Origin: a bacterium
Lineage (GTDB): Bacteria > UBP6 > UBA1177
NCBI GenBank assembly: GCA_017538365.1
Contig: JAFYIZ010000013.1
Coordinates: 1-33,323 of the forward strand
Length of the DNA stretch: 33,323 nt
Direction of reading: 5' to 3'
Part shown: piece after piece, positions 198 to 19,240 of the stretch
Position numbering within the stretch: the first letter of the stretch is position 1
Layout: each line of letters opens with the position of its first letter
Notes under the pieces: model-generated
Databases searched by the model: none
Told to the model about the DNA's origin: nothing
The model's input: the letters and a program-made list of their open reading frames with translations, nothing else
Made by a program: the position numbers and the translations under genes

Positions 198-737
198 TTA
201 GTTTTGCCCTCTCAGACAACCTTCGGTTGCCAGCTCCCCCTGAGTGGGAGCCAAGTTACCCTCTCCGTCACTGCGTGACACCTCCCCCAAAGTGGGAGGC
301 AAGTTACCATCTCCGTCATCGCATTGCGATGCCACCTCTCCCTGGGTGAGAGGCAAGTCTTGGCTCGCCCTTGAGGGAGAGCTGTCGCAAAGCGACTGAG
401 AGGGGTTTGAAACATCAAACTTTTTGACTTCTTCCGGCAGTTCCAAGATTTTCACTGTACTTTTCACTGTACTTTTCACTGTACTTTTCACTGTACTTTT
501 TACTGTACTTTTCACTGTACTTTTTACTGTACTTTTTACTATACTTTTTACTATACTTTTTACTGTACTTTCCTTGGAATCAGTTTCGTCTGCTGTTTGG
601 GTAGTAGATTGGGTAGTTTCATTACTACCCGATCCGCTAAAATAATCCGGTTGGATCGGAGAGGGATTTCTTCGCCAATTCGCTACACAGTGTGTGGCGA
701 ATTTTAGAACCAAAAAAAATTGTTGCCTTTTCATCAT
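198..737 (-). CDS. Repeat-filled hypothetical ORF, possibly a remnant gene or non-coding
   Basis: An open frame of 179 codons ends 18 nt before the DUF559 start. Residues 1-55 lie over several inverted repeats. Residues about 56-95 are tandem Ser-Thr/Ile-Val-Lys tetrapeptides from ten 12-bp units. The C-terminal part is simply the translation of the palindromic array at 207-405. The start (ATGATG at 732-737) has no good ribosome binding site. The short stretch after the repeat, VKILELPEE, resembles the entry into the winged helix that follows similar linkers in AlbA_2/AAA-4 proteins. It may therefore be the debris of such a gene whose DNA-binding end was replaced by repeats. No domain is recognisable and no function can be given. 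It may not be translated at all. Confidence 0.3.
   Translation of the reverse strand: MMKRQQFFLVLKFATHCVANWRRNPSPIQPDYFSGSGSNETTQSTTQTADETDSKESTVKSIVKSIVKSTVKSTVKSTVKSTVKSTVKSTVKSTVKILELPEEVKKFDVSNPSQSLCDSSPSRASQDLPLTQGEVASQCDDGDGNLPPTLGEVSRSDGEGNLAPTQGELATEGCLRGQN
207..405. repeat. Structured palindromic repeat array, three direct units and one inverted unit
   Basis: Units lie at 207-258, 259-306 and 307-361, with a reverse-oriented unit at 359-404. Each starts CCCTCTC or CCATCTC, forms a first small hairpin, then a second hairpin, and ends GGCAAGT or GCCAAGTT. First stems differ but stay paired: CAACC/GGTTG, GTCA/TGAC, GCAT/ATGC and GTCGC/GCGAC. Second stems also pair in each copy: GCTCCC/GGGAGC, CTCCC/GGGAG, CTCTC/GAGAG. 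A broken partial unit (184-197) abuts the DUF559 gene. The family resembles palindromic repeats I remember from gut Firmicutes and other anaerobes. That resemblance is from memory, not from a search. Confidence 0.85.
451..570. repeat. 12-bp tandem repeat array, ten units (encodes STVK)
   Basis: Ten contiguous 12-bp units of the form TTYACTRTACTT, read on the minus strand as AGTACAGTGAAA (Ser-Thr-Val-Lys). Variation is confined to two transitions per unit, and similar variants cluster, as expected for slippage or unequal exchange. The unit length is a multiple of three, so copy-number change would not shift a reading frame. Confidence 0.95.
611..702. repeat. Cluster of three inverted repeats
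   Basis: Three inverted repeats follow one another: GGGTAGT/ACTACCC with a 6-nt loop (611-630), CCGATCC/GGATCGG with a 17-nt loop (629-659), and a 25-nt interrupted palindrome with arms ATTCGC-ACACA/TGTGT-GCGAAT (678-702). They lie under the weak ORF's N-terminal part and suggest structured non-coding DNA or mobile-element ends rather than protein code. Confidence 0.7.
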
Positions 738-839: not shown

Positions 840-1613
840 TTATCCTCTTTTCAGTTTGTTCAGATCTATCGTATATCCCATAGAATCAAGCTCTGTCAGT
901 ACTTCTAACTCCATTGATTTAGAATCGGTGTAAACTATGCCTTGCATATCAGAAGGAAGTTCAACACCGCGTTCAGCTATGATTATTACATGATCTCTCC
1001 CAAGGCGTCCCATAAAGAAACCCGCTTCAAAAACAACATTTTGACGTGCCCGTGTATTTTCCTGCTGTTCTGTCTTTGCCTTTCCGGTATCGTCAGCAAT
1101 AAACAGACATATCGCTGCTCCAACATCACTATTCTTCTCAAATTTTTCAATAATGGTTGCACCTTGATTTGGTTGTTCATGTAAAATTATAGGTTTAATC
1201 TCTTGATTTTCTATTAGACGGGCAATTTTATATTTCAATCCTTCATCGTGTCCGTGAACTATGAAAACTTTGGAGAAATCTAGATTTTCTTTAAATTTCA
1301 TTTTTTTCTCTTCCTTTTTTTCCTCCATCTCTTCTATGTATGCGGACAATTCTGCTTTGGTAACTTCTAAATGATGTTTGCAAGCCGCAATATAATCTCT
1401 GGTTGATGTTCTTCCTGGAATCACAATAATAGGATTAAACAATCTGCCAATAAAATCTTTATATTCCTTGCTTTGGTCTCCGTATTGGTTTGCCAAAAAT
1501 CGCTCCAACTTTTTATGCCATGTTATGAATTCAGGCGATGAAGTTGTAACCTGCTTAGCAATCAGATCATCTATTTCATCGTACAGTTTACGTAATTTCT
1601 CATAATCACCCAT
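840..1613 (-). CDS. TIR-like nucleotide-binding effector (Cap12/Pycsar-type TIR family)
   Basis: A 257-residue protein. Residues 1-110 are a helical, charged region of unknown role ending in a Glu/Lys-rich coiled segment (94-108). Residues about 113-255 match the TIR-like family PF10137: KVFIVHGHDEG at 115-125, PIILHEQPNQG at 141-151, TIIEKFE, a DVGAAICLF strand, RARQNVVFEAGFFMGRLGR at 188-206, and LPSDMQGIVY. The Glu in NVVFE (about 196) is the likely catalytic residue. Family members are often NAD+ hydrolases acting as abortive-infection effectors in CBASS- or Pycsar-type defence. No cyclase or sensor domain is visible here, so the trigger is unknown. The gene starts 11 nt after the hsdS stop with a TAGGAGAG ribosome site, so it is co-transcribed with the restriction system. 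Its base composition is AT-rich compared with hsdM. Confidence 0.85.
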   Translation of the reverse strand: MGDYEKLRKLYDEIDDLIAKQVTTSSPEFITWHKKLERFLANQYGDQSKEYKDFIGRLFNPIIVIPGRTSTRDYIAACKHHLEVTKAELSAYIEEMEEKKEEKKMKFKENLDFSKVFIVHGHDEGLKYKIARLIENQEIKPIILHEQPNQGATIIEKFEKNSDVGAAICLFIADDTGKAKTEQQENTRARQNVVFEAGFFMGRLGRDHVIIIAERGVELPSDMQGIVYTDSKSMELEVLTELDSMGYTIDLNKLKRG

Positions 1614-1624
1614 ATTTTTCTCTC

Positions 1625-2731
1625 CTACCCAAAATATTCCTGCATCAAGCCATCAAACAAAATCTGTGATTTTTCAAGGGATTTTTGAATATTTGCTTTA
1701 GTTTTGTCTATCTGAGAAACGAAGTCGGCAAATTGTTTCTGTAAATCTAATGGTGGTAAAGGTACTTTGAACTGTTTTACATCTTTCACATTTACATGTG
1801 CCACAGTAGAAGCATTATTTTTATCCAAGGCCTGTTTGTAAACATCATCTGAAATCACGGCATGAAGTAAATATTCAGAAGAAGTTTTTTTATAATTTGG
1901 TCTAAGTAACATAACTCTCTGTCCTAAACAAAATTTATATCCAGCAGGAAGTATTGCTGCATTTCCAAATGTTCCTTCTCGCCCATATACGATATCTCCA
2001 GCTTCTGGGCGAAGCCTAGCAATTCTTTCTTCATATTCATCATCAGAAACAAACTTCATAGATTCCCATGTAATATAGCCTTTTTTTATTTCTGAAGTTC
2101 TGATAGCAGGATTTTTTAATTCACCATCATATTTCGGTGTTGTGTGTGGACAATCTACTATTTCAGAACATAGTTCTTCAACAGACTTAAACTCATATTT
2201 TCCATCCCCAAACATCTCCACAAATCTGGCCTTGATGAGGTTGTCGAGCGCGGAAAGCTGCTGCTGACGTTTAGAGATGACAGATTTAACATTAGAAAGA
2301 ATATGTACTATTTCTCGTTGTTTTTCCAAATCGCATTTCGGTATCACCATTTGACGCATGGCGGCTTGAGTCAATTTCATTCTTGTTGCACCGTTTACCA
2401 AACTGCCTACATCGTAAAACATTAAAGAGTAACAAAGATAATCAACATCTAGACCCTCTTTAGGTTTGAGAACATGGGCGTGGTTGTTGACCCAACATTT
2501 GCCCGAAACACGATATGCAATAGGACGATCTTTTGATCCAAAATTGCCGCCATCTTCCGCCAATAAAACCAGTTCGTCGTCAAAAATATAATCATCAACA
2601 TAATCTTGAACCCCATTTGCTCCATAATAGGGATATTGACCTTCTTTTCTATCTGAAGCAGTTATAGGAATTCGCTTGGAATCCAATATTTCACAAACAT
2701 CCTCAAGTTTTACCATTTTCCTCTCACTCAT
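1625..2731 (-). CDS. hsdS: Type I restriction-modification specificity subunit HsdS
   Basis: A 368-residue specificity subunit that would give DNA target recognition to the HsdM (and HsdR) complex. It has the usual two halves: target-recognition domain 1 at about 5-140 (VKLEDVCEILDSKR start, YPYYGANGVQDYV), a central helical spacer at about 140-172 (QREIVHILSNVKSVISKRQQ, LDNLIKARFVEMFG), target-recognition domain 2 at about 178-325, and a second helical spacer at the C-terminus (PPLDLQKQFADFVSQID, ILFDGLMQEYF). It follows the lysine-rich ORF by 6 nt with GGGAAA before the ATG. An internal ATG at codon 6 also has an AGAGGAAA site, giving the more usual MVKLEDVC start, so either start is possible. 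GC falls sharply in target-recognition domain 2 compared with the central spacer, which suggests domain exchange. Confidence 0.93.
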   Translation of the reverse strand: MSERKMVKLEDVCEILDSKRIPITASDRKEGQYPYYGANGVQDYVDDYIFDDELVLLAEDGGNFGSKDRPIAYRVSGKCWVNNHAHVLKPKEGLDVDYLCYSLMFYDVGSLVNGATRMKLTQAAMRQMVIPKCDLEKQREIVHILSNVKSVISKRQQQLSALDNLIKARFVEMFGDGKYEFKSVEELCSEIVDCPHTTPKYDGELKNPAIRTSEIKKGYITWESMKFVSDDEYEERIARLRPEAGDIVYGREGTFGNAAILPAGYKFCLGQRVMLLRPNYKKTSSEYLLHAVISDDVYKQALDKNNASTVAHVNVKDVKQFKVPLPPLDLQKQFADFVSQIDKTKANIQKSLEKSQILFDGLMQEYFG

Positions 2732-2737
2732 TTTCCC

Positions 2738-3016
2738 TCACCCCGCAATTTCCTGTCCACTTTCTTTGTTTTTCTGTCCACTTTTCTGGCCACTTTTTAT
2801 TTTCTGGGTAGTTTTCTGGGTAGTTTTTAAAGTGACCTTTTCGGTGACTTTTTTGGTGACCTTCAGTCCGATTTTCTCCCTAGTTTTTTCAGTTTTCTCC
2901 CTAGTTTTTTCATTTTCTACCCTAGTTTTCTCGTTTTTCACCCTAGTTTTTTCCACAGTTTTCTGTTTTTTTCCACACTTCTTTTCCACAGTTTTATCGG
3001 ACATTTTTTCACTCAT
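2738..3016 (-). CDS. Small lysine-rich tetrapeptide-repeat protein (hypothetical)
   Basis: A 92-residue, very basic, low-complexity ORF between the AlbA_2 gene and hsdS. It starts MSEKMSDKTVEKK at an ATG overlapping the end of the upstream gene by 8 nt, with GGGGAAAG just ahead, and stops 6 nt before the hsdS ATG. Almost the whole body is degenerate four-residue units with lysine in one position: EKTR, VTEK, TTQK, SGQK. The underlying DNA is a degenerate run of the same 12-bp unit found in the AlbA_2 gene, including an identical stretch at 2779-2798. No known domain. The good start and tight spacing favour translation, possibly mainly to couple expression of hsdS; a DNA-contacting basic tail is conceivable. 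It could also be a repeat expansion that happens to stay open. Confidence 0.5.
   Translation of the reverse strand: MSEKMSDKTVEKKCGKKQKTVEKTRVKNEKTRVENEKTREKTEKTREKIGLKVTKKVTEKVTLKTTQKTTQKIKSGQKSGQKNKESGQEIAG
2760..3000. repeat. Degenerate 12-bp repeat tract
   Basis: A run of loosely conserved 12-13-bp units built on TTTTC plus a variable middle: TTTTCTGTCCAC, TTTTCTGGCCAC, TTTTCTGGGTAG twice, TTTTCGGTGAC, TTTTCTCCCTAG twice and TTCCACAGTT types. Unit types occur in blocks, as expected from local amplification. It makes up nearly all of the lysine-rich ORF. Confidence 0.75.
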
Positions 3017-4475
3017 TTTCTTTCCCCTGCACAATTTCCCAGTAACCGCCTTTGTCAGGACCGACACGGCGGATAAATTTTTCCTTTTGCATTTCCTGAA
3101 GAAGTTTTTTGACAGTTGTATGTCCTACTTTTAGCAGATGCTCCAATTGTGCGATTGTTACAGTCGGATTTTGAGCAATTGCATCAAGTATTTGTTGCGC
3201 TTTTTCTGGCCACTTTTCTGGCCACTTTTCTGGCCACTTTTCTGGCCACTTTTCTGTTTTCTGGCCACTTTTCTGGTCACTTTCTTCGTTTTCAGGGTCA
3301 TTTACAGTGCCATTTACAAGGTCATTTTTGGTGACACTGTCACCATTTTCAGCTTCTTTCATCAGCTCCAGATACACATCCGACGCATAGCAGCGTGCTG
3401 TTACGCCGCCCAGAGAAAGGTCTATCACCGGAAGTTTTGCGTTTTCTTCTTCGCAGTATCTTGTAATTTTTTTGAAGCCGCGAGCCCAGCTTTCAATCAT
3501 TCCGCATTTGAAGAAGACGTTCGCAAGATTCGGGTTGCACGGTTTTGAAACGTGTTCCTTATACAGATCTTCGACAGGAACTTCTTTGGGAAGCGCACCG
3601 TCGTTCCAGAGGCGGATCTTATCTTTGTAAATGCGTATCTGGATCGGCGTGGTGCACAGATAATCTTTGTGGATTACCGCGTTCAAAAGCAGTTCTCGAA
3701 AAGCGGATTTCGGAAAAAAGAATGTTTCCTTTCTGTAAATACCTTCATAGGAAATAAGAGCTTTCATGTATTTTGTATAAATCAGCTCCATTGTTTTTTC
3801 TACCTGAAGAATCAGCGGGCCGTGAATTTCATCCTGATAGAGAATGTCGGCATCATTTTCAAAGTAAGCGACTTTTATATATGCACCGGTCACCCACATT
3901 TCGGGATCGGGATGGAACGCAAGCATACAGGCACGGGTCAGATAATGGCCTTCAGTAATGTGCAGATTCTTAATGAGCGTTTCATTTGTCACATTCAGCG
4001 CATCGTCGTCAAGACGGCCTGAGTCTTTTGCCTTTTTCTTGAAAAGCCTGATCGCGTCATTTTCCAAATCGGCAACTGAAATATGCGGAACGGGAACAGA
4101 ATCCCAAGTGCGGCCCTGAACGCCAAGAATCATTTTATCAAGCTCGATTCCGCTTACTTCCTGAATGGTAGAGCCGGTGCGCTTGTAATATTTGCCGTGA
4201 TAACTGACAGGAAACGGATATTTTTCGGTGATGATTTCAAAATAATCGCGCCCCTCTTTTGAAAGCAGATTGACCGTGCAGATCAAACCCATCGAATTGC
4301 GGATCTTATTCGGAATATCTTCGCTCAGTTTGTGCGCCTCTTCCACGCCGCAGACAGTGCCGTCGTCCTTTACGCCGATATAGAGTTTTCCGCCGTTCGT
4401 ATTTGCAAAGGCGCAGATCCATTTGAGATATTCGTCACGCCACGCGCTTTTGTATTCAATATTCTGATTTTCCAT
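3009..4475 (-). CDS. AlbA_2 / divergent AAA-4 DNA-binding protein with ATPase-like and winged-helix domains
   Basis: A 488-residue protein of the RecG-like COG2865 type. The N-terminal AlbA_2 domain spans about 1-120 (NIEYKSAW; FANTNGGKLYIGVKDDG at 23-39). A middle domain includes FRELLLNAVIHKDYL (259-273), IRLWNDG and NPNLANVFFKCGMIESWARG (314-333), matching HATPase_c_4. Residues about 380-425 are a low-complexity linker with DQKSGQKT and four EKWP units, then a winged helix at about 427-480 (AQQILDAIAQNP, VGHTTVKKLLQEMQ). Such proteins are usually transcriptional or nucleic-acid-binding regulators and often sit inside type I restriction loci, but their exact role is unclear. It starts 3 nt after the hsdM stop. 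The linker length is set by a 12-bp tandem repeat and could vary between strains. Confidence 0.85.
   Translation of the reverse strand: MENQNIEYKSAWRDEYLKWICAFANTNGGKLYIGVKDDGTVCGVEEAHKLSEDIPNKIRNSMGLICTVNLLSKEGRDYFEIITEKYPFPVSYHGKYYKRTGSTIQEVSGIELDKMILGVQGRTWDSVPVPHISVADLENDAIRLFKKKAKDSGRLDDDALNVTNETLIKNLHITEGHYLTRACMLAFHPDPEMWVTGAYIKVAYFENDADILYQDEIHGPLILQVEKTMELIYTKYMKALISYEGIYRKETFFFPKSAFRELLLNAVIHKDYLCTTPIQIRIYKDKIRLWNDGALPKEVPVEDLYKEHVSKPCNPNLANVFFKCGMIESWARGFKKITRYCEEENAKLPVIDLSLGGVTARCYASDVYLELMKEAENGDSVTKNDLVNGTVNDPENEESDQKSGQKTEKWPEKWPEKWPEKWPEKAQQILDAIAQNPTVTIAQLEHLLKVGHTTVKKLLQEMQKEKFIRRVGPDKGGYWEIVQGKENE
3202..3280. repeat. 12-bp tandem repeat array in the linker of the AlbA_2 gene
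   Basis: Four perfect copies of TTTTCTGGCCAC lie at 3202-3249. A 7-nt partial unit (TTTTCTG) follows, then TTTTCTGGCCAC and TTTTCTGGTCAC to 3280. The partial unit shifts the repeat phase: the same DNA unit is read as Glu-Lys-Trp-Pro in the first block and Ser-Gly-Gln-Lys in the other. Confidence 0.95.
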
Positions 4476-4478
4476 TCC

Positions 4479-5978
4479 TCATTCTCCCAGCATCTTTTTA
4501 AGTTCCGCAAGTTCTTTCTGGATCTCGTTTTCGAGGTCGTCGATATTCTGCAGGATCTCGCTTGTCGGCGGATATTCCACAGCCACATATTCCGTTTTTT
4601 TGTATTTGTTGATGCTTAGGTCGTAGTCGTTGGCGCGGATTTCGTCTGCAGGAACGAAGAAGGACTGCTGAGTGCGGTCGCTGCCCTCATCTTTTAGCGC
4701 ATGAAACCGCGCGATTATATCCGGAATGTCGTTTTCTTTGATCGGGCTGCGCTTGTCGTCAAGCGAGAAACCGTCAGCCTTCATGTCGTAGAACCAGACT
4801 TTGTCGGTGCCGCCGTGCCCTGTTTTGGTAAATATTAGGATCGCGGTCGAAACTCCGGCATAAGGTTTGAAAACGCCCGATGGCATCGAGATCACCGCTT
4901 CAAGACGGTTGTTTTCGATCAGCTCCTGACGTATCGCCTTGTGTGCCGTGGAAGAACCGAAAAGGACTCCGTCTGGAACGATGCAGGCGCAGCGCCCGCC
5001 CACTTTGAGCATACGAATGAAAAGCGTGAGAAAAAGAAGCTCCGTCTTTTTGGTTTTGCACACTTTCAGAAGATCGGTCGAAACGATATCGGCATCAAGA
5101 CTCCCTTTGAAAGGGGGATTTGCGAGAATGAGAGTGTATTTTTCGCGGTCGGGATTCTGGTCGGAAAGACTGTCGCGGTATTCGATGAACGGATTTTCCA
5201 CACCGTGCGTCATCATGTTCATCGCGCCGATACGAAGCATCGTGCGGTCCATGTCGTAGCCGTGGAACATATTGTTCATGTAGTGATCCTTGTTCTGGCG
5301 GTTGAAAAAGACCTCCTGCTTGCGGTTTTCCTTGAGATAGTCGCTCACAGCAACAAGAAATCCCGAAGTGCCGCACGCAGGATCGCAGACGATCTCGTCA
5401 GCTTTAGGCTCCATCAGATCGACCATCATGCGGATGATGTGTCGCGGAGTGCGGAACTGACCGTTGACACCCGCCGTCGCAATCTTGGAAAGCAGATATT
5501 CGTAAATATCGCCGCGCGTGTCGGCCGCCTTGAGCTGGGACATCTGCTCGTAAATACCGTCCATCGCAGTCACTATCTTGTCGAGCATCAAAGGAGTCGG
5601 GATCTTGAAAATCGCATCACCCATATATTTGGAGTAGGCGCTCTCCTTGTCGCCGTGCAGGTTTTTGATGAACGGAAAGACCCATTCCTGCACCGTGGAA
5701 TACATCTTCGCAGCAGGAAAATCGTGAAAAACGCTCCACTTGAGCTGACTTCCGTCCACAGTGCGCTCACCGACCTGAACATCACCTGCAAAAATGCTTT
5801 CGTAAGCAAGCCCCAGCATCGCAGCCTCTTTCGCACGAGTGTTGTCGGCATCATCCAGATCGTGAATGAACATCAGGTAGGTCATCTGCTCGATGACATC
5901 AAGCGGATTCGTGAGACCGCCCGTCCAGAAAATTTCCCAAAGAGAGTCGATTTTGTTTTTAAGTTCGCCTGTGATCAT
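4479..5978 (-). CDS. hsdM: Type I restriction-modification DNA methyltransferase subunit HsdM
   Basis: A 499-residue adenine-N6 methyltransferase subunit. The N-terminal helical domain (about 1-150) begins LKNKIDSLWEIFWTGGLTNP. The S-adenosylmethionine motif I is CDPACGTSGF at 198-207 and the catalytic motif IV is NPPF at 287-290. QFRTPRHIIRMMVDLM (174-189) is the typical lead-in to the catalytic domain. The C-terminal helical end (ENEIQKELAELKKML) would contact HsdS. The length is normal for the family. It starts 9 nt after the Fic stop, with the stop TAG forming part of a TAGGAGC ribosome site. It needs HsdS (1625-2731) for target choice; the HsdR motor/nuclease is not in the window. GC is clearly higher than in hsdS and the TIR gene. 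Confidence 0.96.
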   Translation of the reverse strand: MITGELKNKIDSLWEIFWTGGLTNPLDVIEQMTYLMFIHDLDDADNTRAKEAAMLGLAYESIFAGDVQVGERTVDGSQLKWSVFHDFPAAKMYSTVQEWVFPFIKNLHGDKESAYSKYMGDAIFKIPTPLMLDKIVTAMDGIYEQMSQLKAADTRGDIYEYLLSKIATAGVNGQFRTPRHIIRMMVDLMEPKADEIVCDPACGTSGFLVAVSDYLKENRKQEVFFNRQNKDHYMNNMFHGYDMDRTMLRIGAMNMMTHGVENPFIEYRDSLSDQNPDREKYTLILANPPFKGSLDADIVSTDLLKVCKTKKTELLFLTLFIRMLKVGGRCACIVPDGVLFGSSTAHKAIRQELIENNRLEAVISMPSGVFKPYAGVSTAILIFTKTGHGGTDKVWFYDMKADGFSLDDKRSPIKENDIPDIIARFHALKDEGSDRTQQSFFVPADEIRANDYDLSINKYKKTEYVAVEYPPTSEILQNIDDLENEIQKELAELKKMLGE

Positions 5979-5987
5979 GTTTTGCTC

Positions 5988-7046
5988 CTATTTTTTGTTT
6001 CTATTCCAAACATATTTAGTGTATCTGCCGCCGCCGATTTTTATGATGTCTTCGGATGCCAGCAGCTCGGACAGAGCGCGTTCCACCGTTTTCTGGCTGA
6101 TGCTCGGACATTGGTTCATAATTTGGGATTTTGAGATCGTTCCTTTTGTGTTTTTGATGATCTCGCGGACCATGTCCGGCTTCGCGACCTTTTTTGCCGT
6201 AAAAATTTCGATCCTTGAAGCAAATTCGCGGTATGCGGCAACCACAACACCCAGCATATAACGGACAAAAGGAAGATAGTCGTTTTTCCCCTCATGCCAT
6301 TCTGCCGAGCTTTCCTGCAGCACCTCGTAATAAGCATCCTTGGTATCCGCTATCAGCTTTTCAATACTTATAAATTTGCCGACATCGTAACCGTTTTTAT
6401 AGAGCAGAAGCAACGTCAGAAGACGGCTCATTCTGCCGTTTCCGTCGTTGAAGGGATGGATGCAGAGAAAATCCAAAATAAACATCGGGATCAAAAGCAG
6501 CGGATCAAGTTCAGGATCGTTCTGAGCCTCCTGAAAAGCCGAGCATATATTTTCCATCGCATCCTTGGTCTCCCACGCAGGAACCGGCTGGAAACGGACC
6601 AGTTGAGTTCCGTCAGGCAATGTCTCGGCAATAACATTGTCGGAGTTTTTGAATTTGCCGCCAATAGAGAGGCTGCTGAAATTGTAAAGATCGCGGTGCA
6701 GCTGCAAAATCATCCCCGGTTTCAGAGGAATATACTCATAACTTTCATGGATCGTATTCAGAACATCGCGGTAACCTGCGATCTCCCGTTCACTGCGGTT
6801 TTTAGGCATTGTCTTATTCAGCATGATCTTTTTCAGCCGCTCTTCCGTAGTGACTATTCCTTCAATACGGTTTGACGCCTCGGTGCTCTGGATCTTTGCG
6901 ATATTCAGCAAGTCGGAAAGCGTTTCCTTGCGAACTCCGGCAAGTGAGTTCCGCTCGCCCTTCTGTTCATGTATCTGCGCCAAATACGAAACGATTTCAG
7001 GTAAAAGCAGCTTTTTGTATTCGATTTTGTAATCAAAACTTCTCAT
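5988..7046 (-). CDS. Fic family protein (AMPylase-type) with winged-helix C-terminus
   Basis: A 352-residue Fic protein. The signature HPFNDGNGRMSR begins at H197 and has the catalytic His and the anion-binding GNGR. An N-terminal helix carries the self-inhibition motif SNRIEG (58-63, pattern S/T-x-x-x-E-G/N), so the enzyme should be held inactive until relieved. The Fic_N region lies at about 1-90 and a helix-turn-helix at about 285-345 (SKSQIMNQCPSISQKTVERALSELL). Fic proteins commonly transfer AMP to target proteins; this multi-domain class is often found beside type I restriction genes. It is the first gene of the operon, with GGGGA 5 nt before the ATG and a plausible promoter upstream. 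The substrate is unknown; the helix-turn-helix suggests it could also regulate the operon. Confidence 0.93.
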   Translation of the reverse strand: MRSFDYKIEYKKLLLPEIVSYLAQIHEQKGERNSLAGVRKETLSDLLNIAKIQSTEASNRIEGIVTTEERLKKIMLNKTMPKNRSEREIAGYRDVLNTIHESYEYIPLKPGMILQLHRDLYNFSSLSIGGKFKNSDNVIAETLPDGTQLVRFQPVPAWETKDAMENICSAFQEAQNDPELDPLLLIPMFILDFLCIHPFNDGNGRMSRLLTLLLLYKNGYDVGKFISIEKLIADTKDAYYEVLQESSAEWHEGKNDYLPFVRYMLGVVVAAYREFASRIEIFTAKKVAKPDMVREIIKNTKGTISKSQIMNQCPSISQKTVERALSELLASEDIIKIGGGRYTKYVWNRNKK

Positions 7047-17944: not shown

Positions 17945-19240
17945 ATGAAACGCTTTATGTTTTTGCTTTCAATCGTTTTTATTTTCGCTTCGTTGACGGC
18001 TCAGGAAGCTCCGGCAGAAGCTCCTAAAGCTGACGAAAACCAGCCCGCAGCAGAGCAGGCGGCACCTGCTGAAGAAGCTCCGGCAGCTGAACAGGCTGCT
18101 CCGGCAGAAGAACCTGCGAAGGAAGAAGCTCCGGCTGAAGAACCAGCTAAAGAAGAACCTGCAAAAGAAGAACCTGCAAAAGAAGAAGCTCCTGCTGAAC
18201 AGGCTGCTCCGGCAGAAGAACCTGCGAAAGAAGAAGCTCCCGCAGCTGACGCAACCGCAGAAGCTCCGGCTGACAACTGCAACTGTCCGAAATGCGACGC
18301 TCCGGCAGAAGAAGCTCCTGTTGCTGATCCGCATCACTTCATCTACTTCAAGCCGCAGCTTTCAGCAAGCTACATGCACAACAGCCACGTTGCAGGAAAA
18401 GCAGACGGTCACTACTTCCAGACGGATGCAAACATTGTTTTCAACTACAAGTACAAAGAGAGCATCCACGAAGTTCTTACCGACCTCAACCTTAAAGAAG
18501 GCGTAAGCCGCACTCCGGCATTTGACGGCTGGGTAATCGCAAACGACCTTTTCAAGTTCGACTTCCGTTACAACCTTATGTTCCACAAGATCGCAGGTTA
18601 CTACTTGAAAGCCGGTCTTGAAACCCACTTCCTTCCCGGTTATGACTACCAGAATGAAGACACTGACTACATTGTAAAAGGCGATGCTTCAAGAAATGCG
18701 AAAGGCAAGAGAATGTTCCAAACGGCTGAATCCGGCAAACCTCTCTATCTTACCGAAGGAACCGGTATCTTCGTTCGTCCGATCGAACAGGAAGAAGCTA
18801 ACCTTGAAGTTTATGCCGGTCTTGCAGCCAGAGAAGTTTTCGTAGGCAATACACTTGTTCTTGCTGACGATGACGACACTGCTGAACTTGATTTCAAAGG
18901 ACTCAACAATGTTTACGAAGTCGGCGGTGAAGCTGGTCTTACCCTTAACGGCTTCCTTAAAAACAGAGTTGTTGCTTACGATCTTACTGCGAAAGTCGTT
19001 ATGCCTTTCTATATGCCGGATGACACGAAAGACAACTACAAAGAGAATCCTGAAGATGATTTTGCATGGATTGATGCCCTTCAGTTCGAAACCCGCTTCA
19101 GACTTGACTTCAACGTTTACAAATACGTTGCTTTCAATTACGAACTCAATGTTAAGAGAGACTTCGCAGTCGTTCGCGATTGGCAGGTTTCAAACGCTCT
19201 TTACCTCTCGGTATTCTACGAACTCGACAAGAAATACTAA
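17945..19240 (+). CDS. Probable outer-membrane beta-barrel protein with long Ala/Glu/Pro/Lys linker
   Basis: A 431-residue secreted protein. The signal peptide (about 1-19) ends SLTA before QEAP. Residues about 20-110 are repeats of PAEEPAKEE, PAEQA and AEEAPA type, then a compact CNCPKC at 112-117, then a second short linker. From about 130 to the end the protein alternates short amphipathic, aromatic-rich strands (HHFIYFKPQLSASYMH, ALYLSVFYELDKKY), as expected for an outer-membrane barrel with a terminal aromatic residue. The charged linker could span the periplasm or hold peptidoglycan, and the three cysteines could bind a metal or form a disulphide. A strong AGGAGG site and promoter suggest high expression. 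No specific family is recognised; porin or structural roles are both possible. Confidence 0.85.
   Translation: MKRFMFLLSIVFIFASLTAQEAPAEAPKADENQPAAEQAAPAEEAPAAEQAAPAEEPAKEEAPAEEPAKEEPAKEEPAKEEAPAEQAAPAEEPAKEEAPAADATAEAPADNCNCPKCDAPAEEAPVADPHHFIYFKPQLSASYMHNSHVAGKADGHYFQTDANIVFNYKYKESIHEVLTDLNLKEGVSRTPAFDGWVIANDLFKFDFRYNLMFHKIAGYYLKAGLETHFLPGYDYQNEDTDYIVKGDASRNAKGKRMFQTAESGKPLYLTEGTGIFVRPIEQEEANLEVYAGLAAREVFVGNTLVLADDDDTAELDFKGLNNVYEVGGEAGLTLNGFLKNRVVAYDLTAKVVMPFYMPDDTKDNYKENPEDDFAWIDALQFETRFRLDFNVYKYVAFNYELNVKRDFAVVRDWQVSNALYLSVFYELDKKY

Follow-up and report, generated by a model that had tools for sequence, protein, structure and literature searches.

Tandem repeats in a Schlafen-type AlbA_2 gene as probable target sites of the adjacent winged helix

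In type I restriction operons of the EcoR124 type, the hsdS gene carries TAEL repeats of 12 base pairs (bp), which are in frame. Binding sites within the gene of the acting protein itself have so far been known from a few replication initiators. The ori iterons of phage lambda are part of the O gene (cf. PMC3349717). In pT181 and pSK41 the origin or its sites lie inside the initiator gene, and replication does not require the peptide that this region encodes (PMC5703833). A protein architecture of Schlafen, HATPase and winged helix is presented as a backup ribonuclease (RNase) of defence systems in PMC12839542, which cites a preprint from 2025 that deals with the part of bacterial Schlafens in defence against phages. 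Here we describe an AlbA_2 gene of this architecture on a stretch of 33,323 nucleotides (nt) from a bacterium of the lineage UBP6; UBA1177 (assembly GCA_017538365.1, contig JAFYIZ010000013.1); the whole stretch analysed is called the window.

The gene contains a tandem repeat directly 5' of the part that encodes its C-terminal winged helix. We consider it likely that the winged helix encoded just 3' of this array, in the same gene, uses the array as a row of binding sites, as in related genes, and that the two are moved together as one cassette. The literature found on AlbA_2 or on intragenic sites, in a search that covered neither preprints nor most subscription papers, does not describe such arrays.

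Repeat units and reading frames

The AlbA_2 protein of the window scored above the Pfam cut-offs for SLFN_AlbA_2 (residues 2-107, 61.9 bits, cut-off 25.3) and HATPase_c_4 (residues 276-353, 65.1 bits, cut-off 26). The MarR_2 helix-turn-helix (residues 428-473) scored 25.2 bits, slightly under its cut-off of 27, but the C-terminal winged helix was recognised by its fold in the AlphaFold2 model and by structure matches to MarR/ZitR. The mean predicted local distance difference test (pLDDT) of the model was 83.7, and the linker at residues 379-412, with pLDDT below 50, is predicted to be disordered. The nearest solved structure in Foldseek was 3lmm (DIP2311); further matches were Schlafens (SLFN12/14), histidine-kinase ATPase domains and the MarR-type winged helices.

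Tandem Repeats Finder gave the array a score of 122 and 7.2 copies. Its translation is SDQK SGQK TE KWPE KWPE KWPE KWPE K, followed by the winged helix. An initial annotation of the sequence had claimed that a single unit is read in two frames within this protein, on either side of a 7-nt partial unit, and that the frame nevertheless remains open into the winged helix. Both claims hold: two AGTGRCCAGAAA units read as SDQK and SGQK are followed by the 7-nt shift and four KWPE units. The partial unit, in which 6 of 7 bases are as in the unit's last seven, had been placed at 3250-3256 instead of 3251-3257, one base off through the choice of phase only. The Ser-Gly-Gln-Lys reading proposed for the first side is correct for the second unit; the first reads SDQK, because GAC replaces GGC (one mismatch).

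The same unit was found in other genomes. When 84,980 species genomes were scanned for two GTGGNCAGAAAA units in tandem, 35 stretches came up; they belong to Bacteroidota, Treponema, Fibrobacteria, Lentisphaeria, archaea and others, and most of them precede a winged helix. About 25 of these stretches are read as KWPE/KWSE and some 8-9 as SGQK; none is read solely in the third frame. The 19-nt interval with its +1 switch recurs with differing spacer letters (L008, L011, L020, L022, L024, L026, L029, L033, L036 and L039), and a 13-nt interval is present in L007 and L038. A sequencing or assembly error of the 7-nt unit is thereby ruled out, since independent homologues in about ten other genomes carry the 19-nt interval with an equal switch and other spacer letters. 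As these genomes represent several core backgrounds, the frame switch appears to be old and inherited with the cassette; the same observation weakens the idea that it arose by a recent recombination that joined an incoming KWPE cassette to a resident SGQK array.

When cases of one unit translated in different frames were counted at the nucleotide level, the GTGGNCAG class comprised 11 modules read as SGQK, 17 read as KWPE/KWSE and 7 read in more than one phase. Among 156 modules of all classes, 57 are read in at least two frames, an upper figure that includes some chance distant 7-mers. Arrays of the SGQK class are also present in the Fic-like genes L016 and L017. These readings of one unit in two frames, within and between genes, strongly support the proposal that the repeat is kept at the level of DNA rather than of the peptide. 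A second proposal, that the linker tolerates any lysine-containing spacer, agrees with its predicted disorder but is incomplete, as the DNA unit is predicted by the neighbouring recognition helix (see below).

Arrays across the family were assessed in a protein-chosen sample of 28 genomes of the phylum, with 111 genes marked by HATPase_c_4 and 107 usable tails. A tandem array, located between the core and the C-terminal winged helix, was significant against a codon-shuffle null in 89 of the 107. The best period was 12 nt in 63 arrays and 11 nt in 7, the rest being composites (e.g. 30 = 11+11+8); periods of 13 nt also occur. The unit changes from gene to gene, and its peptides are highly diverse (NDRI, NDSI, TPVK, GEKL, VTEN, NVQE, DATK, GGVT, SSEK, SSQK, KWPE, APVN and more). 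Units of 11 nt pass through all three frames, such as AAGACTTCAGG (four copies in L058), CTTCCCAAAGA (L098-L100), GTGCCCAAAAG (L089) and those of L186 and others. The arrays do not behave as a phase-variable minisatellite: 12-nt units keep the frame and the 11-nt arrays are open as found.

Selection on the peptide, with lysine-rich tetrapeptides forming a linker that serves structure or binding, would fit a period of mainly four residues, the charged residue in most units and the unit classes that keep to one frame. It is difficult to reconcile with unit peptides as unrelated as KWPE, NDRI, TPVK, GEKL, APVN and SSEK, with 11-nt periods read in all frames, and with L159, where the window's own unit (GGTGGCCAGAAA) stands at a 13-nt period and is translated in all three frames, as GGQK, WPE and VARK, within one protein. 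We give this explanation very little credence.

Winged helix and repeat unit

Queries with the winged helix only, in 386 genomes plus the earlier loci, gave 197 distinct modules, most of them with an array directly 5' of the winged helix. Array and winged helix are carried by Schlafen/HATPase and Fic proteins, whose genes often belong to type I restriction operons. On plasmids of Treponema, Arcobacter, Aliarcobacter, Azotobacter and Salinivibrio, the winged helix was part of an AlbA_2 or Fic gene or stood alone, in each case among or next to type I restriction genes; matches in Emticicia and Aeromonas have other settings. In L183, L147 and L198, two tandem winged helices or adjacent genes each stand behind an array of one common class. 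Units within a genome showed no signal of orthogonality by a loose measure (12.0% vs 10.7% of pairs alike).

Unit similarity rose with the identity of the recognition helix. Pairs that share 8 of 9 unit bases made up about 17% at 0-2 of 9 recognition-helix matches and 94-100% at 7-9 of 9. In a partial Mantel test, unit similarity was correlated with the recognition helix given the rest of the domain (r 0.207); none of 2000 permutations reached this value, the largest being 0.077. In 110 protein-ascertained representatives with less than 70% identity, glutamate or aspartate at residue 32 goes with GG (40/41), whereas lysine there goes with CC only in 19 cases and with GG only in 3 (Fisher, 3.6e-13). 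An aromatic residue 33 goes with ACT (20/23), lysine with RGT, i.e. AGT or GGT (26/31), and arginine with AATG (25/34). Ranked without prior choice, the top columns were 33, 32, 30, 52, 17, 51, 29, 49 and 50, mainly in the recognition helix and the wing. The rules, fixed beforehand, were then carried over to 29 additional arrays, which came from plasmids, from phage and viral contigs and from further loci; there, residue 32 predicted the bases for E/D in 10/10 and for K in 6/6, and residue 33 for aromatics in 6/7 and for K in 6/7. The window gene agrees with the code: K456 and K457, which are columns 32 and 33, occur with CC and AGT, respectively.

Copies of the unit are also present outside coding sequence. 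In the 5' region of L093 and L059, three to four tandem AATGTCGGTNTG copies flank or overlie a promoter-like stretch (TTGACT/TAATAA), and in L133 and L132 up to five TGACAAGATAAA copies extend from a TTGACA box as far as the ribosome-binding site. Both promoter arrays match the unit within the own gene. At least four tandem own sites were found in 3 of 150 5' regions compared with 0 of 40 foreign-unit controls; L132 is a fourth gene. Pattern searches of whole genomes found eight occurrences of AGTGGNCAGAAA in the 2.32-Mb genome of the window, seven of them at the AlbA_2 locus; AATGATAGRATA had seven occurrences and AGTTCGGAGAAA six, all but one inside the own gene in either case.

A neutral minisatellite, with repeats made by slippage in a tolerant linker and units alike through co-inheritance of array and winged helix, would account for the predicted disorder of the linker, the variable copy number and the many arrays of 12n nt, which are in frame. 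However, residues of helix and wing predict bases after control for the whole domain, in representatives below 60-70% identity and out of sample, and the unit of a gene recurs in noncoding promoters. A neutral origin is thus unlikely.

Array and winged helix are exchanged as one cassette

Between near-identical cores, array and winged helix are exchanged together. Core identity is 80% or more in 78 pairs, and in 45 of these the identity of the tails is below 55%. The break is at the array, a median of 3.7 residues ahead of it, and in about 20 pairs five or six of the final six residues agree once more. The AlbA_2 core of the window shares 93% identity with those of G018, G024 and G025, with tails of just 37-41% identity; these orthologues look like later replacements on one core. 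The Treponema relative L008 shares the KWPE unit with the window, its core being 90% and its tail 70% identical. As the array travels with the winged helix in a single cassette, an incoming DNA-binding domain would carry its own sites along. In the mixed arrays of L158, L188 and L134, the near units fit the class of the winged helix and the far units another class, as if the latter were remnants of an earlier cassette. Comparison of the near-identical genes L107 and L106 (genome G027) showed that the winged helix of one copy is out of frame past ITDDGV.

The replaced tails in 45 of 78 pairs, the breaks at the array and the often restored end residues, together with the mixed arrays of the window, L134 and L158, are also what one would see if the array were mainly a recombination junction, its in-frame repeats permitting a swap of the C-terminal DNA-binding domain in the manner of hsdS domain shuffling. 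But arrays share little homology, because units differ between cassettes, periods other than 3n would break the frame, and neither the residue-to-base code nor the promoter arrays would be predicted. We regard such a junction as very unlikely to be the main role of the array.

Several observations weigh against the arrays being binding sites used in self-control. Promoter arrays are limited to two gene families and most genes are without any; no own promoter sites were seen for the window gene, and across all 5' regions own sites are weakly enriched (mean percentile 0.556), the strong cases being confined to the two families. The residue-to-base categories were picked after viewing the first data set, and arginine at residue 33 performed poorly out of sample (AATG in 4/11). 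Finally, the classes ACTACCC, ACTAGGG and AATGTC are nearly always in a single frame, and therefore constraints on the peptide or the junction may also act.

Nevertheless, from the sequence data we think it very likely that each winged helix physically binds the array of its own gene. One site would correspond to about one winged-helix footprint, which would explain direct repeats every 12 (sometimes 11 or 13) bp. The function would be carried by the DNA and the encoded peptide would be a disordered linker, so that any open frame would suffice across the repeat. The protein would bind within the gene that encodes it, and in some relatives at the promoter of that gene as well, and limit its own expression. 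With moderate confidence we infer autoregulation as the use of the sites; autorepression is the likeliest form, because the sites cover promoters too in two families. Such self-limited expression would suit a defence effector of predicted RNase type that is encoded in a type I restriction operon. Within an operon, as in the window, intragenic binding could act as a roadblock. It is also possible that the effector is tethered to its own gene as a sensor.

Modular hypervariable arrays are found in putative Schlafen/Fic defence proteins of several bacterial phyla and of archaea, on plasmids and on some viral contigs. On balance we favour the view that a widespread, swappable combination of a self-operator array and its cognate winged helix lets defence effectors trade DNA-binding domains with self-control kept, and that the recognition code of the winged helix can be read from genomes. 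This points to a general means by which dangerous effectors could stay under their own control as their DNA-binding domains change. If true, the arrays represent many natural protein-DNA specificity pairs, and the family would be a ready-made data set for DNA recognition by winged helices, since each gene reports its own target.

The locus compared with known systems

Housekeeping genes are present on the contig, and the AlbA_2 gene lies between hsdM and hsdS (Table 1). The segment between the AlbA_2 gene and hsdS contains site-like units of at least five classes, including ACTGTGG, ACTAGGG, GTCACC and ACTACCC, and three copies of the class of the AlbA_2 gene itself (2750-2761, 2771-2782 and 2783-2794). 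It is in frame with hsdS and open but for one stop. A related segment is present in G018 and pieces of it in several other genomes; it could be made up of leftovers of earlier cassettes or be a compound operator. The frame resembling a decayed AlbA_2 tail holds the longest array of the window, with no winged helix behind it, and has 20/32 identities to the L126 gene over PIQPDYF..TADETDS. A 30-nt repeat at 18098-18199 on the plus strand, encoding an AEEPAKEE-type stretch in a predicted secreted protein, appears ordinary.

Table 1. Positions of the features in the window
Feature	Position	Strand	Remarks
AlbA_2 gene, 488 amino acids	3009..4475	-	Schlafen AlbA_2, HATPase_c_4, disordered linker and C-terminal winged helix; Pfam, AlphaFold2, Foldseek
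Distal site AGTGACCAGAAA	3270..3281	-	read SDQK
Distal site AGTGGCCAGAAA	3258..3269	-	read SGQK
7-nt spacer ACAGAAA	3251..3257	-	frame shift +1, makes 19-nt (12+7) interval
Proximal array, four AGTGGCCAGAAA	3203..3250	-	read KWPE, abuts winged-helix coding part
Single proximal sites, all AGTGGCCAGAAA	3239-3250, 3227-3238, 3215-3226, 3203-3214	-	
Winged helix, residues 422-481, coding part	3033..3212	-	Pfam, model
Recognition helix, residues 452-464, HTTVKKLLQEMQK, coding part	3084..3122	-	model, alignment columns
hsdM, type I modification subunit	4479..5978	-	directly upstream of AlbA_2 gene
hsdS, type I specificity subunit	1625..2731	-	downstream of AlbA_2 gene
SoFic-type Fic protein gene	5988..7046	-	
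TIR-type gene	840-1613	-	Pfam CAP12-PCTIR_TIR; PADLOC candidate PDC-S35; downstream of hsdS
Segment of site-like units between AlbA_2 gene and hsdS	2732..3014	-	
Open frame like decayed AlbA_2 tail, ten STVK units	198..737	-	sites of another class, AGTACAGTGAAA, at 450-569

Like the TAEL repeats, the array of the AlbA_2 gene has a 12-bp unit that keeps the frame and belongs to a type I restriction operon; unlike these it lies outside hsdS and implies no spacer-length change of restriction specificity. SoFic, a defence gene in PADLOC, has a C-terminal winged helix related to the AlbA_2 tail. The Fic gene of the window has no array before its winged-helix end, unlike the Fic-like L016 and L017 with their SGQK-class arrays. 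With the bacterial proteins of Schlafen RNase, minimal histidine kinase and winged helix in PMC12839542, the AlbA_2 protein of the window shares the domain order AlbA_2, HATPase, winged helix and the defence context; the passages of that paper considered here do not describe repeats or self-encoded sites. The RNase activity and defence role of the window protein are predicted from its domains and context. The AlbA_2 gene has tandem direct repeats beside its DNA-binding domain, and in this it resembles lambda O/ori and the pT181 and pSK41 initiators, where tandem sites or origins lie inside the gene of the acting protein; that the encoded domain binds the repeats is predicted indirectly, by the residue-to-base code and the promoter arrays. 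The present system differs from those: its host proteins are of the Schlafen/HATPase and Fic kinds, frequently encoded in restriction operons and with no sign of an initiator, and there are dozens of site classes, a cassette swapped among cores and a readable residue-to-base code.
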